In this document: positions 7,818 through 48,346 of the stretch, in pieces
How positions within the stretch are numbered: position 1 is the first letter of the stretch
Layout: each line of letters opens with the position of its first letter
Assembly (NCBI GenBank): GCA_026983675.1
Contig: JALSTP010000133.1
Coordinates: 1 to 49,831, forward strand
DNA: 49,831 bases
Origin: Sedimenticola sp.
GTDB taxonomy: Bacteria > Pseudomonadota > Gammaproteobacteria > Chromatiales > Chromatiaceae
Direction: 5' to 3'
Position numbers and translations under genes: made by a program
The notes under the pieces: generated by a model
Databases searched by the model: none
Told to the model about the DNA's origin: nothing
Seen by the model: the letters and a program-made list of their open reading frames with translations, nothing else

Positions 7818-7831
7818 AGCGTTTGCTCCTC

Positions 7832-8557: not shown

Positions 8558-8569
8558 GGTATCGTCCTG

Positions 8570-17503: not shown

Positions 17504-17508
17504 TCCCC

Positions 17509-28121: not shown

Positions 28122-28789
28122 CAGGCCGCCTCCGGCATGCGCCGCCTGACGTCAGGCCGCTCTCTTTCACCAAGGAGATTGAGAAAACGCACCGAGGCCA
28201 TCTCCAGGCTGTCCACGATCTGGCCAGTCTTGCTCTGCAGCATGGCATGGAGCAGCAGCATCGGGATTGCCACCATGAGGCCGAAGGCCGTGGTGTTCAT
28301 GGCTACAGAGATACTGGCGGAGAGCAAATCCGCCTTCTGCGCGGGATCGGCCTGGGCCACGGCGGTGAAGGCCTGAATGAGGCCGATGATGGTACCGAGC
28401 AAGCCAAGCAGAGTGGCGATATTGGCCAGAGTGCCGAGATAGGGGGTGCGCCGCTCCAGCCGCGGCATCACTTCCATCAGTCCCTCTTCCATGGCCATCT
28501 CCACGTCCTCACGGCGGCGCGCGCTATGAGCGCGGCTGAGTCCGTAACTCAAAATGCGGCCGATGGCGGTCCTGGAGCTGGCGGCGATGCCCTCCGCCTG
28601 GCGGAAATCGCCCCGATTCAGACTCGGCAACACCTTCTTCCACACCCGCTGGTTGGCGCCACGCGCCAGCGTCAGGTAGAGGTAGCGTTCCAGTGCAATG
28701 GCCACGCCGACGGCGAACACCATCAGGATGGGATACATGAAGAGCCCCCCCTGTTGAAAGAACCGGACTATCGCATCAAAACTCGCCAT
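28121..28789 (-). CDS. ExbB/TolQ/MotA-family proton channel
   Basis: A 222-residue inner-membrane protein starting at ATG 28789 (MASFDAIVRFF), with AAGGGG upstream. Three membrane segments are visible: about 17-36, a pair-forming glycine-rich one with TLANIATLLGLLGTIIGLI (about 135-155) and SISVAMNTTAFGLMVAIPML (about 175-195). The second and third are the conserved ExbB/TolQ channel helices. It starts a block of motor genes coupled by stop/start overlaps. A 152-nt gap separates it from the upstream small gene and could hold an internal promoter. Confidence 0.9.
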   Translation of the reverse strand: MASFDAIVRFFQQGGLFMYPILMVFAVGVAIALERYLYLTLARGANQRVWKKVLPSLNRGDFRQAEGIAASSRTAIGRILSYGLSRAHSARRREDVEMAMEEGLMEVMPRLERRTPYLGTLANIATLLGLLGTIIGLIQAFTAVAQADPAQKADLLSASISVAMNTTAFGLMVAIPMLLLHAMLQSKTGQIVDSLEMASVRFLNLLGERERPDVRRRMPEAA

Positions 28790-28941
28790 GGCGTTTTCCC
28801 CTTGTCGTGCGCTGCGCCGGGATGGGCCTTTCTCCACCCCGGCATGGATCGTCTATTGATTTATGCGGAGGCAGATACGCCGCCGTTACCCGGAGGTGTA
28901 CCATCGGGCGCGTGACCCGACTGTGCGCCCGTTGGCAATCT

Positions 28942-29208
28942 TCAAGGTTTGGGATGCGCCGCGCGGTAGTACTCGATGCGTCTGCGAAACACCTCACGGT
29001 CAAGGGGCGCGACGGCATCTTCCAGATCCAGCGCCGGCGGCGCCATCGGCTCACCGGGGAGCGATTTCCGCCATGGCACGATATGCAATACGTTGGGCGC
29101 CTCATGGCTGCCCACCACCGAGGTCCCTTCCAGGTCGAGCCGCTGCGCGCCCATCGCCAGGCCACACCATGCCACCGACATCACCCCCCACAGCATCCAC
29201 AGTTTCAT
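28942..29208 (-). CDS. 88-residue secreted protein of unknown function
   Basis: A small exported protein with a signal peptide ending near residue 20 (GLAMGAQ) and a mature part of about 67 residues. The motif EAPNVLHIVPWR is distinctive and a charged C-terminal helix follows (REVFRRRIEYY). Its ATG overlaps the stop of the TPR lipoprotein upstream by 4 nt (ATGA), which strongly supports that it is translated. It sits immediately before the ExbB-ExbD-TonB block. I do not recognise a named family; a periplasmic accessory of the motor is an inference from position. Confidence 0.7.
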   Translation of the reverse strand: MKLWMLWGVMSVAWCGLAMGAQRLDLEGTSVVGSHEAPNVLHIVPWRKSLPGEPMAPPALDLEDAVAPLDREVFRRRIEYYRAAHPKP

Positions 29209-29822
29209 CGCCGTTCCCTCCCCGCCACTTGGGTCGAAACCCGCCTCTCCGTTACCGCGATCCAGCGCGCCATCTCCTTGTCCTGTCCGCCCATCAACCG
29301 CTGACAGGCGCGATATGCCGTCAACGCCGCTTTCGGCCGGTCCAGATAGAGATCGTAGAGAATGCCGAGATTGCGGTGGCCGTCCGGATCCTCCGGCGCC
29401 GCCGCGATGGCGCGTCGGTAGGCCTGTTCAGCACCCTTGAAATCGCCTTTCTGGCGGCGTACCAGCCCCAGCGCATTCCAGGCCGCGCCATTTCCGGGAG
29501 TGAGCACTACGGCCTTCTCCAACATCGGCGCGGCCTTCGCCACATCACCCCGGCGCAGGTAGATCAACCCAAGGTTGGCAAAGGGACCGGAGAACGCCGG
29601 CCAGTGGTGCGTCATCCCGATCAGGGCCTTTTCGCCGTCCACCTGTCGACCCCGCCGGATCTGTTCCAGCGCCTTCCGGTAGGTCTGTTCGGCCACCGCC
29701 CTCTCCCCAGTCGAAAGCGCCCCACCGGAAGGCGCCTCGCTGCGCATGGGTATGCCGGTGCATCCGACCAACAGCAGCCCTGCCACGATTGCCATCCATC
29801 CGCATCCATCAATCCAGCGCAT
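29205..29822 (-). CDS. TPR lipoprotein
   Basis: A 205-residue protein with a lipoprotein signal (LLLVGC, Cys21) and about four tetratricopeptide repeats between residues 45 and 180, for example FANLGLIYLRRGDVAKAAPM and AWNALGLVRRQKGDFKGAEQ. It is probably anchored in the outer membrane and acts as a binding platform for the motor or barrel proteins. It overlaps the large TPR lipoprotein upstream by 14 nt. Confidence 0.85.
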   Translation of the reverse strand: MRWIDGCGWMAIVAGLLLVGCTGIPMRSEAPSGGALSTGERAVAEQTYRKALEQIRRGRQVDGEKALIGMTHHWPAFSGPFANLGLIYLRRGDVAKAAPMLEKAVVLTPGNGAAWNALGLVRRQKGDFKGAEQAYRRAIAAAPEDPDGHRNLGILYDLYLDRPKAALTAYRACQRLMGGQDKEMARWIAVTERRVSTQVAGRERR

Positions 29823-32610: not shown

Positions 32611-34460
32611 CACTCCTCCTCCCCTGCGCCCCCGGTGGCGGCCTGATCATAGATCTGCGCCAGGGCGAAGCGCGCTTGCACCAGATGGGCGCGGAGGCGC
32701 GCTCGACGCTGTTTCACAAAATGGGCGGCAAGACGTTGCAGGTGTGCCCGCTGCCGCTTCTGCGCCGCCTCCAATTTGGGCAGAAGCCGTGCGATCCCTT
32801 TTCCAGCGGCATCGATACGCTGCTCGAAATCGTCGAAGTCCGCCGGGGTCTGGCGCTCGATGCGTCGAATCGCGCTACTGCGCGTCTGCGCCATTCGCAA
32901 TGCCCGGTCGATGCCGCGCATCCCTTTGCGAGCCGCCCATTTGCGCGCCGAATACGCGCTGTGGGTGCGCCAGATCAAAACCCCTTCGAGCAGTCGCCGC
33001 CGGGCCTCCAGGGTTCCATACTGGGCGTGACCTTCCAGTCTTTTGAGACGTTCGCGCAGGGCATTGAGTTGCCCGAGCTGTGCCTGTTCCTCGTCGGTAG
33101 CGAAGGCAAGCGCGTCATCGCCCATGGCGTCGAGACGCCGTTGCAGCGCATCGCGCCAGTCCCGCAGCGCCCGCTGGCGGGCATCTGCCTCCACCGCCTG
33201 CACCCGGGAATGCTGGCGCGCATAGGCCATCCGGCGCGCCGCCAGCATGGCGCCGAAGGTCTGGACCGACTGGCGGTGCTGTTCGAGGCGCCGTTTCAGG
33301 AAGGCAAGATCGAGGTAGTCCTGCAGCGCCTCGCGGAAGCCGTTGTCCGCCAGCAACGGCGCCAGGTCGCGCCCCGCTTCGTCGAGCGCAAGCCATTCGG
33401 AGGCCGGTTGCTGGCCGATCTCCTCGGTCACCACGTAGACGCTCTTCAGAAATCGCCCGCCGGCGATGCTGTCCTCGAGGCCGCGCAAACGGTCGAGTTC
33501 CTGCGTCAGCGCGCCCTCTGCGGCGCGGTACTGCGACAGTGCCGCCCCCTGTCCACCCAACCGGCTGAGGGCATAGGGGACGGCAAGCAGGGCGTCGGCC
33601 ACGGCCGGTTCACGAAGCGGTCGGCGGGCGAGCCGTTTCCACGGCACCAACGCCATGTCGAGGCGTCCCTCTTTCGCATCGCTCCAACCGGCCGCCAGCA
33701 ACGCCTGATTGGACTGCAATGCCTCCAATCTCACCCGTTGCAGGACCGCTTTTGCCTCCGGATTACGGCCTGCACCAAGCAGGTGCATACCGAGGGCGAA
33801 GTTGGCCCGGTCGCGCAGGGCCTTCTGCTCCTCGTTCACCACCGGCGCGCTGCCAAGGGTATCGAGCAACGCCTCAGCCTCCGCGCCCCGACCCGAGCGC
33901 AGCAGCGCCACGGCGCGATTGAACCGGACATAGGGCGACCAGGCACCCTCGCCTGCCTCGTCGGGGATGAGCGCCGCCAGGGCGCCTCCATTGTCTTGCT
34001 GCCGTAACCGCATCACGCCCTCCATGACGCGCCGCTCGGCCGCCTCGTCCTGCGGCAGGGCATCACCCACACGCGCCAGCGCTGCCAGCGCCTCCCGGTC
34101 CAGTCCCCGGCGATAGCGCACCTTGCCGAGCCAGAACCAGGCCCTGTCCCGGATATCCGGCGGCGGGTCCTGCGCCAGCAATCGTTGGAACAGACGCTCC
34201 GCCTCCCCGTGCATGCGGTAGCCAAGGTAGAGACCGCCGAGCAGCAACGCGCCCTGTCCCGCATCCTCGCCCAGCACCTGCTTCGCCTGCGCTGCGCGCA
34301 GATGGGTGATGGCGGTGAAGTAGCGTCCCTGATAGAACTGGTAGAGGACCTCGCCATAATCGAGGCCATGGGGCGCTCGCGCCGACGTCTCCGCCGCCGG
34401 GACGGGCAACGCCAGCGCAACCGCGAGGGCAACGCCGATCCAACGGCACGAACGCATCAT
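32610..34460 (-). CDS. Exported TPR/helical-repeat protein
   Basis: A 616-residue protein with a cleavable signal peptide (ending near PAAETS). The N-terminal half has TPR-like repeats (YGEVLYQFYQGRYFTAITHL, WFWLGKVRYRRGLDREALAA) and the C-terminal third is a long, charged coiled-coil-like helix array. The ATG at 34460 forms an ATGA overlap with the upstream stop and has GGGAG upstream. It is the first of three consecutive TPR proteins. No enzymatic motif is seen. Confidence 0.82.
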   Translation of the reverse strand: MMRSCRWIGVALAVALALPVPAAETSARAPHGLDYGEVLYQFYQGRYFTAITHLRAAQAKQVLGEDAGQGALLLGGLYLGYRMHGEAERLFQRLLAQDPPPDIRDRAWFWLGKVRYRRGLDREALAALARVGDALPQDEAAERRVMEGVMRLRQQDNGGALAALIPDEAGEGAWSPYVRFNRAVALLRSGRGAEAEALLDTLGSAPVVNEEQKALRDRANFALGMHLLGAGRNPEAKAVLQRVRLEALQSNQALLAAGWSDAKEGRLDMALVPWKRLARRPLREPAVADALLAVPYALSRLGGQGAALSQYRAAEGALTQELDRLRGLEDSIAGGRFLKSVYVVTEEIGQQPASEWLALDEAGRDLAPLLADNGFREALQDYLDLAFLKRRLEQHRQSVQTFGAMLAARRMAYARQHSRVQAVEADARQRALRDWRDALQRRLDAMGDDALAFATDEEQAQLGQLNALRERLKRLEGHAQYGTLEARRRLLEGVLIWRTHSAYSARKWAARKGMRGIDRALRMAQTRSSAIRRIERQTPADFDDFEQRIDAAGKGIARLLPKLEAAQKRQRAHLQRLAAHFVKQRRARLRAHLVQARFALAQIYDQAATGGAGEEE

Positions 34461-34969
34461 TCCCACTCCCGTACGCTGAAGCCGGGCTGGTAGTTGTTCT
34501 CCTGATCCACGATCTTCAGTTCGACATATTTGGGTCCCAATCCCTTGTCCACTTTTCGGGTGGCGCCCCGCTTGTAGTCACGGCCCTTCGGTCCCTTGCC
34601 GATGAAGAACGCGGTGATCTCGTGGCTGCCGGATTTGAGGTTGCCGAGCCATAACCGCTGCACGCCACCGCGCTTGAGCGCCTCGAGTTCCCGCTCGGTG
34701 TAGAGATGGTGGGACACCTCCTTGCCGTCCACCTTGAGTTCCACCGAATCGAGCTGGAAGAAGGCGCCAACATCCAGCGAGAGGAAAACGGCGAATTGGG
34801 TGTTGCCGGGAAAAAGCAGCGCCTCCTCCAGCAGAAACAGGTCGCGATTGAGGTCCAGCACCTCCTTTTTCAGCGCACGGACCTCCGCCTCCATGCTCTT
34901 CGTTTCATCGGCAAAGACGCCCGCCAGGGGCCATATCGCAAGGAGCAGAACGAGAAAACGATACTTCAT
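34457..34969 (-). CDS. Secreted protein of unknown function
   Basis: A 170-residue protein with a signal peptide (about 1-20, GVFADE). A short coiled coil (ETKSMEAEVRALKKEVLDLN) is followed by a domain rich in beta strands with FLSLDVGAFFQLDSVELKVD and SGSHEITAFFIGKGPKGRDY. The second part resembles an immunoglobulin-like or carbohydrate-binding beta fold, but this is only an impression. It lies 12 nt after the DUF1501-like gene and overlaps the TPR gene by 4 nt, so it belongs to the operon. Confidence 0.72.
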   Translation of the reverse strand: MKYRFLVLLLAIWPLAGVFADETKSMEAEVRALKKEVLDLNRDLFLLEEALLFPGNTQFAVFLSLDVGAFFQLDSVELKVDGKEVSHHLYTERELEALKRGGVQRLWLGNLKSGSHEITAFFIGKGPKGRDYKRGATRKVDKGLGPKYVELKIVDQENNYQPGFSVREWE

Positions 34970-34981
34970 GGGTCCAGTACC

Positions 34982-36568
34982 TCACAGGGTGCCGTTGACG
35001 ATGGGGGCAAAGGCGGTGAGCCGGTCCAGCAAACTGGCGTTGCCCAGTCCGTGCGTGGGGAAGCGCGTGGCGAAACCGCCCTGCTCGCCGTGCAGGGCCA
35101 TGTAGTTGAGCGCCACCGTCTGCACCAGCAGGTTAACGTTGTTGGCGGCCGGGCTGGAGGCGGTCTCCACCGAGCCGTCCGGCCGGAAGTGGCCGATCTG
35201 CTGATGCTGCGCCTGCGCCTCGGGCGTCGCGCCCAACAAAGCGGGACGGCCGCCGGGATTGTAGACCAGAAAAAAGGAGGCGGCGGTGGAGGAGTTGTCG
35301 CCCGTCCATACCCCCTTGCCGCGACCGTCCACCGAGTTGTCGACGGCGCCATTGCTGGCCAGTGACCCATCGCTGAACACATACAGCATGAGCGGCACCC
35401 CGCGCCGCGCGGCATACTCCAGGCAGGCCCCCATACAGCGGCCGGCGCGCAGATCGCGCCGCTCGCCGGTGGCGCGGTCGCCGGTATGGTAGTCGAAACC
35501 GCCCATGGCGATGGTGCCGGCGCCGGCGTAGCCATTCACCACCAGCTTCATCACCGAGGCGGTCTTGCGGAACTCGCCCTCGCCATCGAACTCCGCCTGG
35601 GTGAAGATCGAGCCGACGATATCGGTGTCGATGGCGGGATTGAGCGCCGCGGGATCGCCATAACGGTCCACCAGGTCGGCGGCCTTGACGTAGCCGCAGC
35701 GGATCAGCTCCTTGAGCACCGCGTCGGTGGTGAGTTTGGTGTCCACCCGCGCCAGCTTCTTGTCGCTGATGCGTTCGATCGCCTCCATCACCGCCACCGC
35801 GTCGGACTGGTCCAGAAGTCCCACCAGCTTGCCGGTATCCACCAGGCCGGTGACGTCGCCCGGCCGGTCCACCTTGGTGGGCCGCACCGCAGGGTCGAGG
35901 GTCTCTGCCGGCGCCATGGAGTTGCCACCGGAGTCGCTGTTGCGTGAACCGATCAGGGTGAGCAGTTCGCCGTCCGCGCCCGCCTTGTGGATGGCGTACA
36001 TGGGATTGTGTGGATTGTTGCCGGTGTCGTTATCGGAGCGCGCAGGGATCACCGCGCCGGATATGTTGGCCGCGGTGGCGGGCGAGACCCGCTCCAGGAT
36101 GCCCCGCAGAAAGGCGCTGTCGGAGTGAAAGGCCAGGCCGAGGTCGCTGTTGATGAAGTCGTTCGCGCCGGTCTGGGGATTGGCCAGTGGTGGGATCATG
36201 TCCCCCGGCAGCCCCATCTTGCTGTAGCCGGCGGTGGTAAGGAAATCGAGTTGCCCTCCCTGCTGTCCTGCCAGCACGTTGGAGCCCGCCATGCTCGCGC
36301 CGCCGGCGAGGTCGAAGCAGATGAAGGGGATCTTGCCCGCTCCCTGCACGGCGATACCGCACGACTGCTTGAGCGTCTCCAGGTCCGGCGACAGGGCGGC
36401 GCGCGCCGCATGGGGATCGGCAAACAGGCCGAAGAGGGTCGGACCGATCACCGTCCCGGCACCGGTGATCAGGCCGCGGGCAAGGAATTCACGGCGGGTC
36501 ATGGGCCGGCGGTGGTCGGCATGGTACAGCGGCGCATCCGGGTCCAACGATCGTTGCTTTTTTCTCAT
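34982..36568 (-). CDS. Tat-exported DUF1501-like protein
   Basis: A 528-residue protein with a twin-arginine signal (TRREFLARGLITGAG, about residues 24-38) followed by a hydrophobic stretch. The mature part resembles DUF1501/alkaline-phosphatase-fold-like proteins: ICFDLAGGASMAGSN early on, GGFDYHTGDRATGERR and LMLYVFSDGSLASN later. Tat export implies folding, possibly with a cofactor, before secretion. In some genomes similar proteins are labelled as GspF, which nothing in this sequence supports. It follows the dihaem LamG gene by 27 nt. Function unknown; a metal-dependent hydrolase-like or structural role is possible. Confidence 0.72.
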   Translation of the reverse strand: MRKKQRSLDPDAPLYHADHRRPMTRREFLARGLITGAGTVIGPTLFGLFADPHAARAALSPDLETLKQSCGIAVQGAGKIPFICFDLAGGASMAGSNVLAGQQGGQLDFLTTAGYSKMGLPGDMIPPLANPQTGANDFINSDLGLAFHSDSAFLRGILERVSPATAANISGAVIPARSDNDTGNNPHNPMYAIHKAGADGELLTLIGSRNSDSGGNSMAPAETLDPAVRPTKVDRPGDVTGLVDTGKLVGLLDQSDAVAVMEAIERISDKKLARVDTKLTTDAVLKELIRCGYVKAADLVDRYGDPAALNPAIDTDIVGSIFTQAEFDGEGEFRKTASVMKLVVNGYAGAGTIAMGGFDYHTGDRATGERRDLRAGRCMGACLEYAARRGVPLMLYVFSDGSLASNGAVDNSVDGRGKGVWTGDNSSTAASFFLVYNPGGRPALLGATPEAQAQHQQIGHFRPDGSVETASSPAANNVNLLVQTVALNYMALHGEQGGFATRFPTHGLGNASLLDRLTAFAPIVNGTL

Positions 36569-36595: not shown

Positions 36596-39058
36596 TCATT
36601 GCAGCAGCAGGGCGGCACTGCCGAGGGTGGCGGCGCAGGCCGCCTTGACCACGGTGGGCGTACGGTCGGCGGCGCATCCCGCACCGCAGGCGGTGAGCCG
36701 GTCGATCAGCGCATTCAGTTCAGTGCTCACCTCCGCCGCCTGCGGCTGGGTGGTGAGGCCGATACCCACGACGTGGGTAAGCAACGGGTCGATCACCAGG
36801 CTGCGTTCCATCGCGGTATCGAAGGCCTGGCCCGCCGGCGCGCCGAAGTCGAAGCCGGGGAAGTAGCCGCCGCGCAACGCCGGGTCCTCCACCAGGGCGT
36901 TGCAGTATTCGATGGCGAGTTGCGAGACCGCCACCTGGTGCGCCGAAAGGAAGCCGTCGAGCCTCTCTGCCGCGGGCAGTTGCTGGCGGACGGCCTCGAA
37001 GGTGGCCTTTACCCCGCTCTGCTGCGGGCTGACGCCGGTCACGTCGGCCATGCTCTGGTTGATCTCGTCGAAGGTGCGCAGGCCGATGTCCGCCACCGGA
37101 TCGGCATCCACCGGGGGCGGCGGCGACAGAGGCGCGGCGGGCGTCCGCACGTGGGTGTTGTTACCCAACCGGTCGAAGGTGAGGAAGAACTCGTCGGCCT
37201 CGGCGCCCTTCTCAAGGGCGACGACAGTGCCCAGTTCGGAAAGCACCTGCGACTGATCGACAAAGCTGGCGTCGGTAACCACGGTGTCGATGGTGGCGAA
37301 GGACTGGCCCACCACCGCCTCCTTGCCGTTGATGCCGATGCGCATCCCCTTCACCGGGATGACGCCGGGACGCGCATCGGGATCGAGGCTGATGAAGCGG
37401 GGCCGGTTGAAGAGGTAGCTGTAGTTGTCGAACTGTGCCACTTCGAAGAGGATGTAGCTCTCCGGCACACCGGTCAGTTCCGCCACCGAGAAAAGCAGGA
37501 AGAACTTCTCCCCCACCCCGGCGGCGAAGTTGGTGGCGATCTGCTGCGGCGTGAGGGCACGGTTGTGGATCGCCACCATGCGCAGTTTGCCAGCCCACGG
37601 GCGGTCGCCCGAGACCTCGTTGCCGAGCACGAAGGCGAAGCTGTCGTCCCAGTCGTTGAGCCCGCCGGGAGCCACGCCGTCCAGGTCGCCGGTGAACTCG
37701 CCGTTTACGTAGATGCGCCGGCCGTTGACCGGATCGTAGGTGAGAACCACGTGCTGTTCGGTGGCTTGCAACACTTCATTCGCATCGGCGGTGGAGAGGG
37801 CCGGTTCGCCGTTGGCGCCGGTCCCCTCGGAACGGTGCAGAAAGTCGTAGTTGTACTTGGTCTGTCCCAGGGTGAAGTTGCGCGCGCCGGTGCCCGCCGA
37901 GTAGCTGACGATGCGCGCCGGTCCCTCCTGGGTGACATTGGCCGGCACCACCCAGGCCTCGATGCTGTATTCGCCGGTGGCGCGGATCAGGTCCGCCAGT
38001 TTCTTGCTCGCGGCGGTGGCGCCCTGGGCCTTGCCATTGGTGAACTCGATGCCCCAACCGCTTACCCAGCTCACACCGCCACTCAACTGCAGATTGATGG
38101 CGGGCTCCACGCCGCTGGTGTCGTAAGCGATTGTCCCCTTGCCGGTCTTGAACTCCCACAGGGCAATGAGATTGGACTCGGAGCGGCTTCCACCGCTGGC
38201 CACCACGCCGTCGCCAAGTTTGAGCGCCTTGCTCAACACCAGACTGGGATCGACCTGGGTGACCGGCACCTGGGCGGCGAAATTGGCGAGCGCCGTCTCC
38301 ATCTCCACGGCGTTGCTCTGGCAGTCGCTCCAACAGTTGTGGAACTCTTGTCGCAGACGCACCACCAGCCGCGAGTTGGCCGGCGTATCCAGGTCGATCT
38401 TCGCCTTGGCCTCGGCGTAGGCGGCATCCACGTCGCTGCTGGCGAAGAAAGGCGCCTGCGGCGTGGCGGCGCCGTCGTCATGGCAACGGCTGCAATGAGC
38501 GGCGAGCAGCGGATGGACATTGGCGGCGAACAGATCGGACGCCTCCGGAAAACTCTTGCTGGCGCCTGCTTCCTTGATCGGGGGAGGCTTGAGTTGAATG
38601 GTCCTGCCCCCGCCGGCACTGTCTCCCGCCCAGGACTCGATATAGGCGGTGATCACCGCCGCGCAGGCGTCGTTGCTGTCGAGCCAGCAATTGTGTCCGC
38701 CGGCCACTTTGGTCACCATCCGCGAGTTGGGTGGATCGAGCAGATTGACCACGCGGTTGGCCGCATCGTAGGCGAGATTGATATCGTCCTGGCGTACGAA
38801 GTCCGGCGACTGCCCGCCCTCGACGTGACAGGCCCCGCAGCGGTTCTTCGGTTTGAGGTTATCCCATACGCTGAGCTTGAAGGCTTGAACATCTGCAGTG
38901 CGCGCCGCCGGCCCCGTATAGTCAGGCACCTCCCTGTTTGAAGTCACCGGATTCTCCGAGGTGCTGACGCCATCGATACAGCCGCCCAGGCCAAGCAGTA
39001 TCCCCCCGGTGATCAGCAAGGCGCGCAGGCCGGCGCCGACTCTTGTTTGGATCGTCAT
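36596..39058 (-). CDS. Dihaem LamG-domain lipoprotein
   Basis: An 820-residue lipoprotein (LGLGGC, Cys27) starting at ATG 39058, which has GGAGG 9 nt upstream. Two c-type haem sites lie in the N-terminal third: CGACH and CSRCH, each followed by a conserved HNCW segment. A LamG/concanavalin-like domain follows (AYDTSGVEPAINLQLSG, YSIEAWVVPAN, RIYVNGEF, IHNRALTPQQIATNF), then a C-terminal helical part. The combination suggests surface binding together with electron transfer. It lies between the monohaem protein and the DUF1501-like protein. Confidence 0.85.
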   Translation of the reverse strand: MTIQTRVGAGLRALLITGGILLGLGGCIDGVSTSENPVTSNREVPDYTGPAARTADVQAFKLSVWDNLKPKNRCGACHVEGGQSPDFVRQDDINLAYDAANRVVNLLDPPNSRMVTKVAGGHNCWLDSNDACAAVITAYIESWAGDSAGGGRTIQLKPPPIKEAGASKSFPEASDLFAANVHPLLAAHCSRCHDDGAATPQAPFFASSDVDAAYAEAKAKIDLDTPANSRLVVRLRQEFHNCWSDCQSNAVEMETALANFAAQVPVTQVDPSLVLSKALKLGDGVVASGGSRSESNLIALWEFKTGKGTIAYDTSGVEPAINLQLSGGVSWVSGWGIEFTNGKAQGATAASKKLADLIRATGEYSIEAWVVPANVTQEGPARIVSYSAGTGARNFTLGQTKYNYDFLHRSEGTGANGEPALSTADANEVLQATEQHVVLTYDPVNGRRIYVNGEFTGDLDGVAPGGLNDWDDSFAFVLGNEVSGDRPWAGKLRMVAIHNRALTPQQIATNFAAGVGEKFFLLFSVAELTGVPESYILFEVAQFDNYSYLFNRPRFISLDPDARPGVIPVKGMRIGINGKEAVVGQSFATIDTVVTDASFVDQSQVLSELGTVVALEKGAEADEFFLTFDRLGNNTHVRTPAAPLSPPPPVDADPVADIGLRTFDEINQSMADVTGVSPQQSGVKATFEAVRQQLPAAERLDGFLSAHQVAVSQLAIEYCNALVEDPALRGGYFPGFDFGAPAGQAFDTAMERSLVIDPLLTHVVGIGLTTQPQAAEVSTELNALIDRLTACGAGCAADRTPTVVKAACAATLGSAALLLQ

Positions 39059-39084
39059 CGTTGTCCTCCGTTCGGCCCGGCCGA

Positions 39085-40305
39085 TCAATCACCCTTGCAG
39101 TACACCGCCGATTCGGCGAAGACCTGCTTGAGGCTGTAGTTATGGTTCTTGAAGGAGGCCACCATGGCGTCTACCTGAGCGCGGTCGGCCGCATCGCCCG
39201 GTGCGCGAAGGCAAACCGCCTTGAACACCTTCTTCACCTGGCAGCGCGCAAACGCCTCGCTGTGGGCCAACTCCCGTCCCATGCTCTTGGCGCCGTGACC
39301 ACTTCCGGGCAGGCCGGGGTCCCAACCAAGGGCGGCATTGCGCCCTTGTCGCCAGTAGTTGTCCCAGCGGTCGTCTCGGGTGACGTAGCCATACTTGAAG
39401 GTATTTGCATTGATCAAGTACTTCTTCTGTACCCGCGTGCCGGTTTCGGGGTCGACGGTGCCCTTGCGGTTGTAGACCAACCGGCCCAGCGCCTCATCAA
39501 AGTCGTAATAGGCGTAGGCTTGGGTCAGTGGTTCCATGCCGGTATGACAGCCCACGCAGTTGTTGAGAAAGATGCGGCTGTCGCCGCCAGGGCTGCGGCT
39601 CACGTCTTGCCGCACGCGGTCGGGCGGCAGCGTGTTGTCCTTGATCTCCGCCAGATCGGCGCAGAGATGGTTGAGCATGGTGAAGCGGTACATGGCGCGG
39701 TTGGTACCGGCGGCGAAAAAGGCCTTGGCCGCCGCGCGCGATGTCATAATCCCGGCGGTGGCCTCGGCCGGCAGATCGGTGACCGAGGACTGAGTGACGG
39801 CGACCAGGTGTTGCTTTAGGTCGATGCCCTGCGCCTCCAGCGCCTCGTAGTGGTCGTTGTTGGTCATGGAATACGGCGGCAGACCCAGGGCGGGATCGCC
39901 CACATAGACCAGATCAGCAGACAACAGTTCGGTGAAGGGGACATCATCACGCACCATGCCGATGACGGTGGCGGTGTAGTCGTTGAGCGGAACGAAGACC
40001 GACTGCGCCTCGTTGGTCCAGGGCGCGGCGAGATTCTTCAGGGTCACATTGTAGAAGGCGCTGTTCTCCATTGCGGTAAAGGCGGCCTGCAGATCGTTGC
40101 CTGCGGCGATGTCGGCCTCCATGGCATCCAGCACTGCATGACTCGGGGGTACGCCGGCGATGCGGTCGTGAATGCGGCGCGCCTGCTCGCGCGGACCGGC
40201 CACGGCGCACGACACCCCAAGGACGATGAGCGCGGCACAGGTGAGATTACGCAGCCCCTTCCTCTTGGTTGGCGCGCCAACAGGCAATTTGAGCGATTCT
40301 GACAT
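39085..40305 (-). CDS. Monohaem c-type cytochrome-like secreted protein
   Basis: A 406-residue exported protein (signal near residues 15-36) with a single haem-binding motif in FLNNCVGCHTGMEPL. The C-terminal part, HSEAFARCQVKKVFKAVCLR with two cysteines, recalls the end of DUF1585-type proteins. It is the first gene of the minus arm; GAGGAG sits just before the ATG. It probably passes electrons to or from the LamG dihaem lipoprotein downstream. Confidence 0.78.
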   Translation of the reverse strand: MSESLKLPVGAPTKRKGLRNLTCAALIVLGVSCAVAGPREQARRIHDRIAGVPPSHAVLDAMEADIAAGNDLQAAFTAMENSAFYNVTLKNLAAPWTNEAQSVFVPLNDYTATVIGMVRDDVPFTELLSADLVYVGDPALGLPPYSMTNNDHYEALEAQGIDLKQHLVAVTQSSVTDLPAEATAGIMTSRAAAKAFFAAGTNRAMYRFTMLNHLCADLAEIKDNTLPPDRVRQDVSRSPGGDSRIFLNNCVGCHTGMEPLTQAYAYYDFDEALGRLVYNRKGTVDPETGTRVQKKYLINANTFKYGYVTRDDRWDNYWRQGRNAALGWDPGLPGSGHGAKSMGRELAHSEAFARCQVKKVFKAVCLRAPGDAADRAQVDAMVASFKNHNYSLKQVFAESAVYCKGD

Positions 40306-40602
40306 GGAGTCTCCTCTACGCTGTTATTGTTCGAGACCTCCCTGTGGCAGCGGGCCAGCACCCGCCACGAACTCTCCCTTGCATTCGTTGAAACAGATGA
40401 TCGACGTTATCGCCTCGTCCTTCTGTGATCCGGTCTGCAATCACCTCCGGGCGGATGTGATGGCGTTGGCAGAAGGGCCATTCGGCCATCGTTCATACTC
40501 TGTTCGCATCCTGTGTATCGGATATGCATATACGTTCCATCGATAAATAGCGGCCGAAACGACGAAGGCCCGCCTGCATCAACGCCGCGAGGAGTCTGCC
40601 CA
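40306..40602. promoter_or_regulatory. Divergent control region of the redox/ExbBD locus
   Basis: This 297-bp gap separates the two arms of the locus and should contain both promoters. A bulged GC-rich hairpin occurs near 40344-40368 and a palindrome ATATGCATAT at 40522-40531, about 70 nt before the plus-arm start. I cannot identify a convincing promoter pair or a known operator. Confidence 0.4.
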
Positions 40603-43248
40603 ATGACGATCTCTACCGACCTGTTTTCGTTTCGTCGACGTGGTTTCGGTGCAGCCTGTCTGTTGTCGGGCGCGTTTCTGATCGGCGGCTGCCAGGGTGG
40701 GGGCGGCATCAACGGAAGCGCTCAGAAGCCGGATCCGGTGGTGGTGGACAAACCCATCGCTTATGTGAAGCGGCCTCTGGTGAACGCAGGCGTCACCGAC
40801 GTCACCCGGGCGACCGTTTTCAGCAAGGGCGGTGACCTCTACATCAAGGATCGCGCCGCGCCCAGCGCCGAGGAACGCAACGTGACCGCGCGTGTAACGG
40901 GCGGCGAGGGAGACGTGAAAGACGTGGAGGTCTCCTACGACGGCGGACGGTTGCTCTTCGCCCTCCGCCTTCCCGAGCTCGAGGGCGAGGATCCTCCGAC
41001 CTGGAATATCTGGGAGTACATCATCGATGAAGACCGTCTGCATCGCATCATCGCCTCCGACATCACCGCGGAGGAGGGGCAGGACGTGGCGCCCCATTAC
41101 CTGCCCGACGGCCGCATCGTCTTCTCCTCCTCCCGCCAGCGTCGCTCAAAAGCCGTGTTGCTGGACGAGGGAAAGCCGCAGTATGCCGCCATCAGCGACA
41201 ATGACGAACCGGCCATGGTGCTGCACGTGATGAACGGTGACGGCAGTGCCATCCACCAGATATCCTTCAACCAGAATCATGATCTGGACCCCACGGTCAC
41301 CGCCAGCGGCGAGATCCTCTTCAGCCGCTGGAACCCGGACGGCGGCATCAGCCTCTACCGCATCCTGCCGGACGGCACAGAACTCTATCCCCTCTACGGC
41401 AGTGGCAGCCACGCCAGTGGAACCGACGGCAGCAACGTGCAATTCCTCATGCCGCGCATGACCCAGGCCGGCACCGCCATGGCTTTGATCCGCCCGACGA
41501 CCGCACAGGGCGGCGATATCGAGAATATCGACATCGCCCAGTATGTCGACCAGACCCTGCCCCTGTGGGACTACCGCAACAGCCTGAACGGCCCGGCACA
41601 GACCCCGGTCACTGTCAACGATATACGCACCGACGGTTCCCCATCCCCCGGCGGACACTACGCCGCCTTCTTTCCGCTGCATGATGGCACCGGCCGCATC
41701 TTGCTCGCATGGAGCCAATGCCGCCTGATCGGGAATGGCCGCACCCTCCCCTGCACCGCCGGCAACCTGGCGTTACCCGACATTCAGGAAGCGCCGCCCC
41801 GTTATGGGATCTGGATCTACGACCCCAATGAGGCCACGCAGCTTCCCATCGTCCCGCCGCAGGAAGGCATTGCGATCACCGAAGTGGTGGCCGCCCAGCC
41901 CCGTCCCCTTCCCGATATCCGCCTGGACAAGCAGGCCGGTGTCGAGCTGGATGCCGACAATGTGGCAGAAGGCGTGGGTGTGTTGCACATCCGCAGTGTC
42001 TACGACGTGGATGGCGCCGACACCGCCTCGCCCGATATCGCCACCCTGGCCGACCCGGCCCAAACCCCCGCCGCTCAACGCCCCGCCCGTTTCCTGCGCC
42101 TGATCAAGCCGGTCGCCCTTCCGGGCCGTGACGTGCTGCGTATTCCTGCCAGCGCCTTCGGCCCCCGCCGCTCCCTGGGCATGCGTGAGATCCTGGGCTA
42201 CGGCATGATTGAACCGGACGGATCAGTCAAGATAAAGGTGCCCGCCAACGTCGCCTTCAGCTTCGATATTCTCGATGCCAAGGGCAGGCGCACCGGCGCA
42301 ACGCACCCCCACTGGCTGCAGTTGCGCCCCGGCGAGGTCCTCCAGTGTCACGGTTGTCACGAGGCCAATGCCGCCGTGCCCCATGGTCGGCCGGATGCCG
42401 CGCCGCCGTCGGCCAACCCCGGCGCACCCGCCACCGGCCAGCCCTTCCCCAACACCGATCCGACCCTGTTCGCCAACGCGGGCGAAAGCATGGCTGAACT
42501 GCGAACGCGCATCAGTTGTGCGCTGGACGCCTGCGCCGCCCTCTCGCCCGCGGTGGACGTGGTCTATACGGACCTCTGGACCGACACGGCGGTGCGCACG
42601 CCAGACACGCCGTTCTCGTACCGCTACGCCGATCTCGATACCCCGGCGCCCACGAGCAGCAGTTGCATCGCCCGTTGGCGGACCAATTGCCGCACCGTCA
42701 TTCATTACGAGCAACATATCCACCCGTTGTGGTCCAAGCCACGGCAGGTGCTGGACGGCGATGGCAATCTGATCGAAGACCACACCTGCACCAACTGCCA
42801 CGGCCTGGCCGACGCCAACGGCAACCTGCAATTGCCAGCGAAGCAACTCGATCTCAGCGACGGCCCCTCCAGTGAAGCGCCAGACCAGTTCAAGGCCTAT
42901 CGCGAACTGCTCTATCCCGACAACGCGCAGGAGATCGTGGACGGCGTATTGCAGGACAAATCGGTACAGGCCACCGACGCCAACGGCCAGCCCTTGTTCG
43001 AGACCGACGCCAACGGCAACCCGGTACTGGACGCGGACGGGCTCCCCATTCCGATCATGGTGCCGGTCCCCGCCCCAGGTCCTTCGATGCAAGCGGGTTC
43101 GGCCAGCGGCGGCTACTTCCTCTCGCTGTTCGACACCGGCGGGGCGCACGCGGGCTGGTTGACACCGGCGGAACTCCGGCTGATCGCCGAATGGCTCGAC
43201 ATCGGCGCCCAGTATTACAACGACCCGTTCGCAGTTCCGGTGAACTAA
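40603..43248 (+). CDS. Dihaem beta-propeller lipoprotein, HzsA-middle-domain-like
   Basis: An 881-residue lipoprotein (LIGGC, Cys30) starting at ATG 40603, which has GAGGAG at good spacing. The N-terminal half contains propeller-like PD40/TolB repeats (VSYDGGRLLFALRLPE, HYLPDGRIVFSSSRQRRSKA, LDPTVTASGEILFSRWNPDG) and resembles the middle domain of hydrazine synthase subunit A. The C-terminal half carries two c-type haem motifs, CHGCH and CTNCH. Nothing suggests hydrazine metabolism, since HzsB/C are absent; the similarity is structural. It is first in the plus arm and is likely an outer-membrane redox component. Confidence 0.83.
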   Translation: MTISTDLFSFRRRGFGAACLLSGAFLIGGCQGGGGINGSAQKPDPVVVDKPIAYVKRPLVNAGVTDVTRATVFSKGGDLYIKDRAAPSAEERNVTARVTGGEGDVKDVEVSYDGGRLLFALRLPELEGEDPPTWNIWEYIIDEDRLHRIIASDITAEEGQDVAPHYLPDGRIVFSSSRQRRSKAVLLDEGKPQYAAISDNDEPAMVLHVMNGDGSAIHQISFNQNHDLDPTVTASGEILFSRWNPDGGISLYRILPDGTELYPLYGSGSHASGTDGSNVQFLMPRMTQAGTAMALIRPTTAQGGDIENIDIAQYVDQTLPLWDYRNSLNGPAQTPVTVNDIRTDGSPSPGGHYAAFFPLHDGTGRILLAWSQCRLIGNGRTLPCTAGNLALPDIQEAPPRYGIWIYDPNEATQLPIVPPQEGIAITEVVAAQPRPLPDIRLDKQAGVELDADNVAEGVGVLHIRSVYDVDGADTASPDIATLADPAQTPAAQRPARFLRLIKPVALPGRDVLRIPASAFGPRRSLGMREILGYGMIEPDGSVKIKVPANVAFSFDILDAKGRRTGATHPHWLQLRPGEVLQCHGCHEANAAVPHGRPDAAPPSANPGAPATGQPFPNTDPTLFANAGESMAELRTRISCALDACAALSPAVDVVYTDLWTDTAVRTPDTPFSYRYADLDTPAPTSSSCIARWRTNCRTVIHYEQHIHPLWSKPRQVLDGDGNLIEDHTCTNCHGLADANGNLQLPAKQLDLSDGPSSEAPDQFKAYRELLYPDNAQEIVDGVLQDKSVQATDANGQPLFETDANGNPVLDADGLPIPIMVPVPAPGPSMQAGSASGGYFLSLFDTGGAHAGWLTPAELRLIAEWLDIGAQYYNDPFAVPVN

Positions 43249-43378: not shown

Positions 43379-44119
43379 ATGCGCCGACCGATCATCTTTC
43401 TCACCATCATCATGCTCTTCCACCGCATCACCGCCATGGGCGGCGAGCCCCTTCTCGGCGCAGAGGTGGCGACCCCCTTCCTGGAGATGCATACCGGGCC
43501 CGGACGTGGATATCCCGTGTTCAACGTGATCGAACAGGGCGAGCCGCTGACGCTTGTCAAGCGCCGGACCGACTGGATCCTGGTCGAGACCCTGGGCGGG
43601 AAGCGTGGTTGGGTCTCGCGCGATGCGCTGGCGGACGCGCGCGACGCGGAGGGCCTGCCGCTCTACATCGCCGATGCCGATCGCGCGGACTATCTGGCGA
43701 GTCGCTGGGAAATGGGGGTGATGGGCGGCGACCTGGAGGGCGCACGCCTGCTCACCTTCTACGTGGGCTACCGCCTCAGCCCCAACCTCTCCGCCGAGGT
43801 CTCCCTGTCGCAGGCGCTGGGCAATTTCTCCACCAGCCGGATGGCGAACTTCGACCTCGTGGCGCAACCCTTTCCCACCTGGCGCCTGTCGCCCTTCTTT
43901 GCCCTCGGCGGCGGCTGGGTCGAGACCCAACCAAGGGCCACCCTGGTGCAGGAAGAGGACCGGCTCGACACCGCCGCCCACGTGGGCATCGGCGCGCGCA
44001 TGTACCTCAGCCGGCGCTTTTTTCTGCGCGCCGAGTACAGAGATTACAAGGTCTTCACCAGCCGAACAGAGAACGAGGAGCTATCCGAATGGAAAGCAGG
44101 TTTCGCATTTTTCTTTTGA
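43379..44119 (+). CDS. SH3-domain plus outer-membrane beta-barrel protein
   Basis: A 246-residue exported protein. After the signal peptide (about 1-21) comes a bacterial SH3-like domain (about 27-88: LEMHTGPGRGYPVFNVIEQG, WILVETLGGKRGWVSRDAL). A small beta-barrel of about eight strands follows and ends in a terminal Phe (AGFAFFF), the usual outer-membrane insertion signal. SH3 domains of this kind often bind peptidoglycan. The next gene overlaps its last 31 nt. Confidence 0.83.
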   Translation: MRRPIIFLTIIMLFHRITAMGGEPLLGAEVATPFLEMHTGPGRGYPVFNVIEQGEPLTLVKRRTDWILVETLGGKRGWVSRDALADARDAEGLPLYIADADRADYLASRWEMGVMGGDLEGARLLTFYVGYRLSPNLSAEVSLSQALGNFSTSRMANFDLVAQPFPTWRLSPFFALGGGWVETQPRATLVQEEDRLDTAAHVGIGARMYLSRRFFLRAEYRDYKVFTSRTENEELSEWKAGFAFFF

Positions 44120-44733
44120 CGCTGACGGTCGCCGCCTTGGTGCTGTTCGCCCCCGTCTCCTTCTCCGCGGACACGGGCGCGCAACCCGTGATCGCACCAG
44201 AGGCGCCGCGCCGTGAGATTCATGAGGCGCAGATCGACACTGAAGATTTCGAATTCGGGCTGTTCGCCGGCATCATGAGTGTGGAGGACTTCGGCGCCAA
44301 CGCGGTATACGGCGTCCGGCTCGACTATCACCTCACCGAGGATTTCTTCGCTGAACTGGCCGTCGGCCGCACCGATACCGACAAGACCAGCTTCGAACGA
44401 CTTGGCGGTGTGGACCTGCTTACCGATGACGCGCGCACCCTCACCTATTACAACCTGTCGCTGGGCGTCAACCTACTGCCCGGGGAGGTGTTCGTCGGCC
44501 GCAGCTATGCCTTCAACTCCGCCTTCTATCTCATCGGCGGCGTAGGTTCCACCCGCTTCGCGGGCGACGACCGCTTCACCCTGAGTATCGGCGCCGGCTA
44601 CCGGCTGCTGCTGACGGACAGCATTGCCCTGCACATCGACGGCCGGGATCACATGTTCGACATCGATATCCTGGGCGAGAACAAGACCAGTCACAACATC
44701 GAATTCACCGGCGGCATCTCCGTCTTCTTCTGA
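44089..44733 (+). CDS. Small outer-membrane beta-barrel protein
   Basis: A 214-residue protein starting at ATG 44089 with GAGGAG upstream, inside the 3' end of the previous gene. A signal peptide (ending near FSADTG) is followed by eight or so amphipathic strands (FEFGLFAGIMSVEDFGANAV, VYGVRLDYHLTEDFFAELAV, FTLSIGAGYRLLLTDSIALH) and a C-terminal Phe (GISVFF). It resembles OmpA/OmpW-type barrels without the SH3 part of its neighbour; the two may have a common origin. Confidence 0.83.
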   Translation: MESRFRIFLLTLTVAALVLFAPVSFSADTGAQPVIAPEAPRREIHEAQIDTEDFEFGLFAGIMSVEDFGANAVYGVRLDYHLTEDFFAELAVGRTDTDKTSFERLGGVDLLTDDARTLTYYNLSLGVNLLPGEVFVGRSYAFNSAFYLIGGVGSTRFAGDDRFTLSIGAGYRLLLTDSIALHIDGRDHMFDIDILGENKTSHNIEFTGGISVFF

Positions 44734-44743
44734 GGATCGAATC

Positions 44744-45244
44744 ATGCGGACGAAACGACACACTTTTCTACGGGTCATCGCCGTCTTGTTGGCAGCGGTC
44801 TCCTTCAGCACCTGGGCATCGACCGGAAGCGTCGCACCCGATTTCACCCTCAAGGGCCGGGACGGCCGCAACATCAAACTCAGCGAGCTGCGCGGCGAGG
44901 TGGTGATGATCAACTTCTGGGCCTCCTGGTGCGCGCCTTGCCGCCAGGAGATGCCTCTGCTCAACGACCTCTACCAAAGATACCGGAAGCTGGGCTTTAC
45001 CCTCCTCGGCGTCAATGTGGAACAGAATCCACGCGCGGCGAAGCGGCTGCTGAAGGATATCCCGGTGGACTTTCCAGTGCTGTTCGATGACCGCAACGAG
45101 GTGAGCAAGGCCTACGATATATCCGCCATGCCAAGCACCGTGTTGGTGGATCGCGACGGCCATATCCGCTTCGTACATCGTGGCTACAAGCCAGGACTGG
45201 AGGAACGCTACCAGCAGCAGATCCGCACTCTGATCCGGGAGTGA
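44744..45244 (+). CDS. TlpA-family thiol-disulfide oxidoreductase
   Basis: A 166-residue periplasmic thioredoxin-like protein with signal sequence, active site WCAPC (Cys63, Cys66) and cis-proline region AMPSTVLVDRDG. It should reduce disulfides outside the cytoplasm, possibly the haem-binding cysteines of the cytochromes in this locus or the Cys-rich end of the DUF4266 lipoprotein next to it. It starts 10 nt after the barrel gene. Confidence 0.9.
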   Translation: MRTKRHTFLRVIAVLLAAVSFSTWASTGSVAPDFTLKGRDGRNIKLSELRGEVVMINFWASWCAPCRQEMPLLNDLYQRYRKLGFTLLGVNVEQNPRAAKRLLKDIPVDFPVLFDDRNEVSKAYDISAMPSTVLVDRDGHIRFVHRGYKPGLEERYQQQIRTLIRE

Positions 45245-45246
45245 GA

Positions 45247-45468
45247 ATGCGCACTGCCCCGCTTTTCGCCCTTGTACTCCTTCTGCTGGAGGGATGCGGC
45301 ATGTCGCCCTGGGTGAAACCCTACGAACGGGCTCACCTCGCCGACCCGATCATGCGCTTCGAACGCAATCCGGTCTCCTCTTCATACCGTCATCACGTCT
45401 TCCAGGCCCGCGAAGGAGCGCGCGGCGCGGAGAGCAGTCAAGGGGGGGGCGGCTGTGGCTGTAACTGA
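45247..45468 (+). CDS. DUF4266 lipoprotein
   Basis: A 73-residue lipoprotein (LLLEGC, Cys17). The conserved core WVKPYERAHLADPIM and the glycine-rich tail ending GGGGCGCN match DUF4266. ATG 45247 follows GGGAG at 5 nt; a GTG at 45241 overlapping the TlpA stop is an alternative. The last 14 nt overlap the DUF3570 gene. Genes of this family are commonly found beside DUF3570 and ApbE genes, as I recall. Function unknown. Confidence 0.83.
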   Translation: MRTAPLFALVLLLLEGCGMSPWVKPYERAHLADPIMRFERNPVSSSYRHHVFQAREGARGAESSQGGGGCGCN

Positions 45469-46600
45469 TCACATCCTCCGATGGGTTGTTATCGCGGCCG
45501 CGGGCCTTTGTGCAGCAGAGGTCTCTGCGGGCGTTCTACCCGAGGACCGGGCGGACGCCCTCTATCACAGCTACGACGGCGGCGGTGTGGAGGTGAACGG
45601 CCCGTCATTGCTGGTCCGGAAATCCCTCGGTCAGAATGTCTCGGTTTCCGCCAGGCACTACGTGGACGCCATCTCCAGCGCTTCCATCGACGTGGTGACC
45701 ACCGCCAGTCCCTATGAAGAGGAACGGACCGAAAACGGCCTTGGCGTCGACTACCTTGCCGGTGACTCCACCATGAGTCTGAACCTCACCACCAGCTCCG
45801 AGAACGACTATGAAGCGAAGACCTTCGCCTTCAGCATCGGCATGGACATGTTCGGCGACCTCACCACCGTGAGCCTTGGCTACTCCGTCGGGCAGGACAA
45901 GGTGGGCAAAACGGGCCAACCCGAATTTTCCAAAGACGTGGACCGCCAGAGCTATCGGCTTGGCCTGTCCCAGATACTCACCAAGGACTGGCAGGCGGAG
46001 CTGGGTCTGGAGACCATCACCGACGAGGGTTTTCTCAACAACCCGTACCGCAGCGTGCGCTACCTCGACCCGGCCAGCCCCAAAGGCTACAGCTACGAGC
46101 CGGAGGTCTATCCCCACACCCACACCAGCAATGCCGTCTCGATCCGAACCGGTTACTACCTGCCCTGGCATGCGTCGCTCAAAGGCGAGTATCGCTACTT
46201 CACCGACACCTGGGGCATCCGCGCCCACAACGCGGAGATCGGCTACACCCATCCCCTCGGCAACCACTGGACGCTGGATCTGAGCTACCGTTACTACACC
46301 CAGACCGCCGCCGATTTCTATGCCGACATATTTCCGCGACAACAGGCGCAAAACTACCTCGCCCGCGACAAGGAACTGAGCACCTTCCACAGCCACACCT
46401 TCGGCGCAGCGGTCAGCTATCTGTTCGAACCGGCAGGATGGCGCTTCATCGATCACGGTTCGCTGACTGCGTCATACGACCATATGTTGTTCCGCTACGA
46501 GGACTTTCGTGACCTCAGCGCGGCGGGTCCCGCAGGCGAGGAGCCGCTGTACGACTTCACCGCCAGTGTGATGCAGCTCTACCTCTCGATCTGGTATTGA
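45455..46600 (+). CDS. DUF3570 protein, candidate ApbE substrate
   Basis: A 381-residue exported protein starting at GTG 45455 (preceded by a G-rich ribosome site) with a signal peptide ending near VSAGV. The mature chain is rich in amphipathic strands and ends in LYLSIWY, consistent with an outer-membrane beta-barrel. Near the N-terminus VDAISSASIDV (Asp71, Ser74, Ser77) resembles the ApbE flavinylation motif Dxx(S/T)GA(S/T), with Ser in place of Gly. ApbE is encoded in the other arm of the locus. Covalent FMN here would put a flavin at the outer membrane beside haem proteins. Family assignment is good; flavinylation is a hypothesis. Confidence 0.85.
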   Translation: MAVTDHILRWVVIAAAGLCAAEVSAGVLPEDRADALYHSYDGGGVEVNGPSLLVRKSLGQNVSVSARHYVDAISSASIDVVTTASPYEEERTENGLGVDYLAGDSTMSLNLTTSSENDYEAKTFAFSIGMDMFGDLTTVSLGYSVGQDKVGKTGQPEFSKDVDRQSYRLGLSQILTKDWQAELGLETITDEGFLNNPYRSVRYLDPASPKGYSYEPEVYPHTHTSNAVSIRTGYYLPWHASLKGEYRYFTDTWGIRAHNAEIGYTHPLGNHWTLDLSYRYYTQTAADFYADIFPRQQAQNYLARDKELSTFHSHTFGAAVSYLFEPAGWRFIDHGSLTASYDHMLFRYEDFRDLSAAGPAGEEPLYDFTASVMQLYLSIWY

Positions 46601-47854: not shown

Positions 47855-47900
47855 ATTGACCTGACAACGATATACATCGTATCCAGCCGTGGCGTGCCCC
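47855..47900. repeat. Palindromic repeat, copy B (right arm degraded)
   Basis: ATTGACCTGACAACGATATA and the core CGTATCCAGCCGTGGCGTGCC align with the reverse complement of copy A and with the left half of copy C. The expected right arm is only recognisable as CTATTCCGGGA (47900-47910), which now forms the last codons and stop of the hemerythrin-like gene. Confidence 0.65.
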
Positions 47901-48346
47901 TATTCCGGGATGGCTTCGGCGCCGATGCCTGCATGTTCCAGCCTGGGGAAGAGGATCTTCTCCTCCTGTTCCACGCGGGTACCCAGCCGCTCGAAGAGAT
48001 CCAGGGTGTCATCGATGAAGGCCTGGGTGAAATCGAAATCGCAATTCTTCAACCATTTCTTCTGGTAGTCGCCCAATGCGCGGCGCAACGACTGTTCACC
48101 GCTCTTGAAGCCCCATGCCACCGATTTGATCTTCGGATCGTCGGACACGAGCAGCGACGGATAGAGATCCTTGTCCTCGCCCTCCACGTGGTCAGAAATC
48201 TTCTTGACGATATCGCACAACATGTCATGTGCCGTCTTGGCCAGCGGCTTGATGGCCAGATCCTTCTCGTTCAGCATCGGCCGGATCTCCTCCACCATCT
48301 GCGCGATCTCTTTGTGTTCCTGCCGAAGCGTACTGATATTTCTCAT
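47900..48346 (-). CDS. Hemerythrin-like (HHE) domain protein
   Basis: A 148-residue cytoplasmic four-helix protein. Candidate diiron ligands His11, His40, His53 and Glu57 (in SDHVEGEDKDLYP) are present. In the fourth helix the usual His is replaced by Arg124 (TRVEQEEKILFP), although the Glu pair remains, so the metal site may be altered. GGAGGAGAGG precedes the ATG. Possible roles are oxygen, NO or iron-stress sensing. It is divergent from katG, which suggests a shared stress context. Its stop lies in repeat copy B. Confidence 0.8.
   Translation of the reverse strand: MRNISTLRQEHKEIAQMVEEIRPMLNEKDLAIKPLAKTAHDMLCDIVKKISDHVEGEDKDLYPSLLVSDDPKIKSVAWGFKSGEQSLRRALGDYQKKWLKNCDFDFTQAFIDDTLDLFERLGTRVEQEEKILFPRLEHAGIGAEAIPE

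Follow-up and report, generated by a model that had tools for sequence, protein, structure and literature searches.

The window that we analysed (the whole stretch of 49,831 nucleotides from Sedimenticola sp.) carries a locus of about 18 genes, in which an ExbB/ExbD/GltG-like/TPR block is found together with genes for CXXCH proteins, a TlpA-like thioredoxin, a DUF4266 protein, a DUF3570 protein and apbE. The genes, and the two motifs of the DUF3570 protein, are as follows.

25062-26072, minus strand: apbE, lineage B, candidate cognate flavin transferase (PF02424, 274 bits; tree; residues)
26069-27283, minus strand: GltG-like TonB protein, start uncertain, ORF overlapping ExbD-like 1 (NF033768 AgmX/PglI C-terminal domain, 70.2 bits, cut-off 40)
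27106-27612, minus strand: ExbD-like 1 (PF02472, 55.6 bits)
27609-28121, minus strand: ExbD-like 2 (PF02472, 48.9 bits)
28121-28837, minus strand: ExbB/TolQ-like (AglR-like) motor subunit (PF01618, 102.4 bits)
29205-29822, minus strand: TPRlip, TPR lipoprotein with a weak GltE match (profile matches)
29809-32613, minus strand: TPR934, TPR protein (TIGR02795, 117 bits; TPR families)
32610-34466, minus strand: TPR618, TPR protein (PF14559)
34457-34969, minus strand: cc170, conserved locus protein without Pfam or NCBIfam match (25 of 27 loci)
34982-36568, minus strand: o528, no match above cut-off among Pfam profiles
36596-39088, minus strand: o830, two CXXCH, Laminin_G_3 (CXXCH count; profile match)
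39085-40305, minus strand: o406, one CXXCH, weak PSD2 (CXXCH count; profile match)
40513-43248, plus strand: o911, two CXXCH, match to the hydrazine-synthase-alpha middle domain, start uncertain (PF18582, 54.1 bits)
43379-44119, plus strand: SH3OMP, SH3 domain and small barrel (PF08239 and PF13505 above cut-off)
44089-44733, plus strand: OMPb, small outer-membrane barrel (TIGR04565, 156.5 bits, cut-off 60)
44744-45244, plus strand: TlpA/ResA-like thioredoxin (PF00578, 109.4 bits)
45241-45468, plus strand: DUF4266 small lipoprotein-like protein, ending CGCN (PF14086, 79.5 bits)
45455-46600, plus strand: DUF3570 protein of lineage B, predicted 16-strand outer-membrane barrel, candidate ApbE substrate (PF12094; predicted model)
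45665-45685, plus strand: motif 1, D71-A-I-S-S-A-S77, candidate FMN acceptor Ser77 (D71, A76 and S77 invariant in 32 aligned rows)
45689-45709, plus strand: motif 2, D79-V-V-T-T-A-S85, second candidate acceptor Ser85 (D79 and S85 invariant in 32 aligned rows)

The score of o911 lies far below the cut-off of the hydrazine synthase equivalog. PF13899 was not among the matches of the window TlpA-like protein, and DsbD was absent from the scanned proteins of the window locus. We compared 27 loci, selected for having apbE on the fetched stretch (some locus genes lie partly beyond these stretches). With their blocks shuffled, o406, o830, o528, o911, SH3OMP, OMPb, TlpA, DUF4266 and DUF3570 recur in them, as do cc170, TPR618, TPR934, TPRlip, ExbB, the two ExbD and the GltG-like gene; the CXXC of TlpA is present in all 27 loci, and the C-terminal CXC of DUF4266 in 26. 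The position of apbE varies: it stands behind the GltG-like gene in the window and in G435, G436 and G551, and elsewhere near o528, directly behind DUF3570 (L020, L029-L033) or in other places. The locus is split in G186 (L218, L219) and G623 (L036, L230), with apbE beside cc170 and the ExbB/TPR half, and in G342, G368, G611 and G609 apbE adjoins no locus gene.

Outside this locus, positions 11702-18972 of the window hold in a row a GAF/HlyD protein, a HlyD/M50-like protein, a SecA-like protein and a further HlyD-like protein (the first profile-scanned, the others identified by eye), which looks like an accessory secretion cluster. At 6840-11482 (minus strand), a molybdopterin oxidoreductase found by profile scan lies beside an iron-sulfur protein and an NrfD-like membrane protein, both recognised by eye, and a hemerythrin-like protein is encoded at 47900-48346 (minus strand).

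Motifs and predicted fold of the DUF3570 protein

The ORF at 45455-46600 has a GTG start and encodes 381 amino acids. It matches PF12094 with 138.9 bits (cut-off 25), and the profile match begins at residue 80, directly after motif 1. An earlier note on this DNA had pointed to Asp71-Ala-Ile-Ser74-Ser-Ala-Ser77 as a candidate flavinylation site, and we indeed find DAISSAS at residues 71-77; it had missed a second Gly-less copy, motif 2 (DVVTTAS, residues 79-85), which parallels the first. The canonical [ST]GA[ST] occurs nowhere in the window DUF3570 protein, SSAS and TTAS standing in its place. When the mature part was shuffled 20,000 times, D..[ST][GS]A[ST] arose in 1.1% and at least two copies of D..[ST].A[ST] in 0.125% of cases. 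Poor conservation of Asp71 and Ser77 was named in the earlier note as evidence that would speak against the site, and the opposite was found: Asp71, Ala76 and Ser77, together with Asp79 and Ser85, are invariant across 32 aligned lineage B relatives. Residues 71-77 have conservation rank 34 of 348 among seven-residue windows, and residues 74-80 are in the top ten; motif 1 is thus well conserved, yet it is not the best conserved stretch of the protein.

Across the 27 loci, D..[ST][GSN]A[ST] is present in every DUF3570 protein, in its strict form in 7 of them. None of the 13 other proteins of the window locus has [DN]..[ST]GA[ST] or D..[ST][GSTAN]A[ST], and in the 17 other gene families over the 27 loci D..[ST][GSNTA]A[ST] never falls in a column shared by two proteins. 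As only isolated matches were met (strict ones in 1 of 20 o528 and 1 of 22 o830 proteins, loose ones in 1 of 26 o911 and 1 of 13 TPR934 proteins), we rejected another locus protein as a better ApbE target, and the previous observation, made by eye, that the locus holds no better match stands.

The AlphaFold model of the window DUF3570 protein, made with 32 sequences (pLDDT 84.1, pTM 0.80), has 16 strands as counted from DSSP. Many outer-membrane barrels are among its structure matches, with PelBC as the best Foldseek match and with VIA-align Z values of 21.6 for a BamA model, 19.6 for PelBC, 19.2 for 4y25 and 18.4 for BcsC. As far as the predicted model goes, these matches fix the fold class of DUF3570-B, not its function; searching the PDB by sequence with a DUF3570-B profile yielded no hit with an E value of 1 or less. 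Outer-membrane barrels usually have both ends in the periplasm, and in that case the loops after odd strands should face outward. In the model, these loops average 11.75 residues in comparison to 4.0 for the other turns, which fits the assumed topology. By this usual rule, motif 1 would run from the top of strand 3 into the outward loop 76-86, whose residues 80-84 are below pLDDT 50 and which is predicted to lie near the long conserved loops 193-221 and 284-310. We infer the placing of side chains in the barrel from the same model.

Two DUF3570 lineages

We gathered DUF3570 loci with their surroundings from three sets: 33 named records, a sample of 398 genomes from the phylum (29 with DUF3570) and a sample of 195 genomes from the order (39 with DUF3570). 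Comparison of the last 200 residues left 111 distinct proteins out of 130 ORFs, and 108 of these were long enough for a tree, the short L145, L035 and L037 being dropped beforehand. Lineage B, to which the window protein belongs, comprises 69 of these 108 rows on one side of a branch with an SH-aLRT of 92 (a value from a quick method; L106 forms an extreme long branch in this tree). The remaining 39 rows, which we call lineage A, all fall outside it. At first, lineage B was defined through a sequence pattern of which the motif is a part, and the tree afterwards gave the same group as a branch side; G481, the motif of which lies off its contig, was assigned to lineage B by profile coordinates alone.

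In lineage A, the fifth motif position is Gly in 38 of 39 proteins (the exception, L112, reads DAITAAS), and the strict motif falls in the motif 1 column. Lineage B keeps the Asp, the Ala and the acceptor Ser, and has Ser at the fifth position in 61, Gly in 6 and Asn in 2 of its 69 proteins; the canonical [ST]GA[ST] is absent from both sites in 54. Because the 6 Gly rows are scattered over several places of the lineage B tree, it seems that Gly and Ser exchange within this lineage. There is also a difference in surroundings. In 38 of 39 full-length lineage A rows apbE lies at most 1.1 kb from DUF3570, and it does so in 7 of 71 lineage B rows, being otherwise kilobases away or unlinked, while the SH3OMP and OMPb partners were found with 69 of 71 B rows and with 0 of 41 other rows. 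The expectation that DxxS(G/S)A(S/T) forms might go with nearby apbE was therefore too simple, as the Gly form marks lineage A and the Ser form lineage B. Simple loss of apbE was also ruled out as an account of the Ser form, with an ApbE in 71 of 72 DUF3570-B genomes and none in G624.

Flavinylation of this family by ApbE is already published. The ApbE of Chlorobium luteolum flavinylates DUF3570 at two [ST]GA[ST] motifs, and flavinylation was abolished only when both serines were changed (Meheust et al. 2021, PMC8238504); we equated these sites with motifs 1 and 2 via alignment with lineage A rows. What is new here is that the window protein is in a second DUF3570 lineage, in which Ser mostly replaces Gly. 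PMC12052999 relates, with reference to Bertsova 2019, that a tested substrate with Ala in place of the motif Gly still shows about 50% flavinylation, so this Gly is not essential. The same source reports a minor effect of Asp to Ala in the tested substrate, which makes conservation of the Asp weak evidence of ApbE recognition, and a preference for Thr over Ser in the motif. Judged by sequence, flavinylation of Ser77 by ApbE is likely. One may ask whether it occurs mainly at Ser85 of motif 2 rather than at Ser77, the more so as Ser85 is equally invariant in the 32 rows, several B proteins have SGAS at motif 2 and not at motif 1, and both sites are used in C. luteolum (PMC8238504). However, motif 2 varies in spacing and letters among B proteins (TTAS, TSGAS, TQGS) and motif 1 does not, and it is the motif 1 column at which the strict motif of lineage A sits, which makes a main site at Ser85 rather unlikely.

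The ApbE of lineage B

The earlier note placed apbE in the same locus as DUF3570. This is correct in so far as a conserved locus spans both genes; in the window, however, they are 19,383 bases (19.4 kb) apart on opposite strands, so that apbE does not lie within five genes of DUF3570, the distance by which the published DUF3570 systems are judged here. The window ApbE matches PF02424 and has the catalytic residues. In a tree of 83 rows, a single clade (29 rows, support 100/100) gathers the ApbEs of B loci and is separate from the A-associated ApbEs (37 rows, 99/96) and from 17 further ones; three rows of the ApbE-B clade come from outside the loci, and their genomes also have DUF3570-B. Five catalytic positions are kept in 29/29 ApbE-B rows, and the Mg-site Asp and Thr in 27/29 each. 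Residues A98, A104, S105, G107, Y110, Y112, R113, S223 and S250 are fixed in ApbE-B and different in other ApbEs, and they are candidates for the basis of a changed motif preference.

When scored with the window ApbE, B-type ApbE and DUF3570-B were found together in 32 of the 195 and 10 of the 398 sampled genomes and neither alone, with a threshold of 290 bits in one sample and 363 bits in the other, both set after seeing the scores (the next ones being 224 and 173). The genomes are related, the 32 lying in few genera, and due to this Fisher values for the co-occurrence overstate it; the 10 lie in 5 families. One genome is common to both samples. In the resulting 41 genomes, both genes are on one contig in 27, namely within 30 kb in 26 (6.1-27.1 kb) and at 100 kb in G186, and on different contigs in 14, whose assemblies are mostly fragmented. 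In a further set of 33 genomes, mostly metagenome-derived and chosen because they have DUF3570-B, a B-type ApbE was found in 26 (in 25 with at least 308 bits, in one as a 217-bit fragment) and not in the other 7, most of which are metagenome assemblies. Four of these seven make up two pairs of sisters in the DUF3570 tree (G592/G596 and G602/G612), so a real loss of ApbE-B is possible there. No ApbE of any type was found in G624, a single case of a metagenome chromosome, whose DUF3570-B gene (L037) matches residues 1-171 only. The marker cc170 is present in 33 of 195 and 14 of 398 genomes; the six that have it without DUF3570-B (2/195 and 4/398) also show no B-type ApbE, and hence ApbE-B follows DUF3570-B and not the TPR block.

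This bears on the idea that DUF3570-B has lost flavinylation, the Gly-less motif surviving as a structural remnant in strand 3 and its loop, and that ApbE serves another locus protein or an FMN_bind protein. Such a loss would agree with the missing canonical motif in 54 of 69 B proteins, and the genome does hold one FMN_bind protein and a second ApbE; moreover, apbE remains with the ExbB/TPR half in the split loci of G186 and G623. We nevertheless regard it as unlikely, since the ApbE-B clade and DUF3570-B coincide without exception in two samples, with the six cc170 genomes following the same rule, the motif is in a shared column in no other locus family, and the acceptor serines remain invariant. 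Another possibility is that ApbE-B acts as an FAD pyrophosphatase, as the Treponema enzyme does, and not as a transferase, given that the best solved-structure matches of the window ApbE are entries of the Treponema pallidum type. This is highly improbable, as the flavin-stacking residue is described as Tyr in FAD-binding transferases and polar in pyrophosphatases (PMC4767422), and 27 of the 28 ungapped ApbE-B rows have an aromatic residue or His there, which is Phe in the window ApbE.

A putative outer-membrane flavoprotein and its closest known systems

We thus consider it quite probable that DUF3570-B is an outer-membrane barrel to which a dedicated ApbE of the same locus attaches FMN, at Ser77 and perhaps also at Ser85, in a motif that is usually of the form Dxx[ST]SAS. 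Beyond what computation has established, i.e. the motif, the lineages, the co-occurrence, the shared locus and the barrel as a prediction, DUF3570-B is probably flavin-tagged covalently by its own matched ApbE, which would tie a flavin redox part to a proton-driven envelope machine.

In this scheme, DUF3570-B and ApbE-B would descend from a DUF3570/ApbE pair, with the motif now usually having Ser for Gly. ApbE-B would modify the DUF3570-B chain in the periplasm, ahead of its folding into the outer membrane, and FMN might end at the outward loop between strands 3 and 4, or else in the barrel mouth, a position that would adjoin the two long conserved loops. Electrons may then pass among the CXXC of TlpA, the CXC of DUF4266, the c-type hemes of the CXXCH proteins and FMN. 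The FMN adduct and its residue, the side of the membrane, this electron path and the link to the ExbB/ExbD/GltG-like block are what we infer. A more far-reaching and tentative proposal, one that we would not expect to hold in full, is that the gammaproteobacterial Agl-Glt-like core is a redox machine, in which a proton-driven ExbB/ExbD/GltG/TPR complex would be coupled to an outer-membrane barrel with covalent FMN on its outer face, fed by thiol carriers (TlpA, DUF4266) and heme carriers, with a dedicated ApbE shifted from DxxSGAS to DxxSSAS.

If true, the ApbE motif would be widened beyond Gly, and scans for flavoprotein motifs would miss a whole lineage. It would also offer a clean enzyme-substrate pair for studying the evolution of ApbE specificity, suggest that an outer-membrane barrel can have a flavin facing outward, and give a handle on the function of the core complex reported in 2011.

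Among the literature matches listed for ApbE with a flavinylated outer-membrane beta-barrel there was only a NosX paper, and among those for ApbE alongside Glt/ExbB/TonB gliding machinery only PMC8238504 has ApbE; the word barrel is absent from the main text of the latter. In the DUF3570 clusters which that paper describes, DUF4266 and a thioredoxin-like protein occur, in some cases with DsbD as well. The window system shares with them the PF12094 protein, the DUF4266 protein with a C-terminal CXC (PF14086, CGCN end), the thioredoxin-like protein (here TlpA-like) and ApbE. It differs from the DUF3570 of PMC8238504 in that Gly is missing at both sites, that ApbE is of its own clade and not adjacent, and that there are SH3OMP and OMPb partners in an ExbB/TPR/cytochrome locus with no DsbD among its scanned proteins. 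As for ApbE itself, PF02424 and the catalytic residues are those of an FAD:protein FMN transferase, but ApbE-B forms a separate clade with its specific residues around 98-113, 223 and 250.

The other close system is the Agl-Glt core complex of gammaproteobacteria, for which no function was known in these bacteria in the report by Luciano et al. (2011, PMC3169522); the main text of that paper lacks the words ApbE and TlpA. An ExbB-like gene and two ExbD-like genes are present in the window as well. The window GltG-like protein reaches 49.1 bits with the GltG equivalog, in comparison to a cut-off of 650, and passes that of the AgmX/PglI C-terminal domain, while the three TPR proteins give a sole Glt match, GltE at 21.5 bits (cut-off 225). 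The locus, which does not reach the Glt equivalog models, fits the Agl-Glt core complex in composition and may be a form of it. Common to this complex, as described in PMC3169522, and to our locus are the ExbB, two ExbD, GltG-like and TPR genes in one region together with an extra conserved gene, whereas in the window these genes are joined to apbE, DUF3570, DUF4266, TlpA and the CXXCH proteins.
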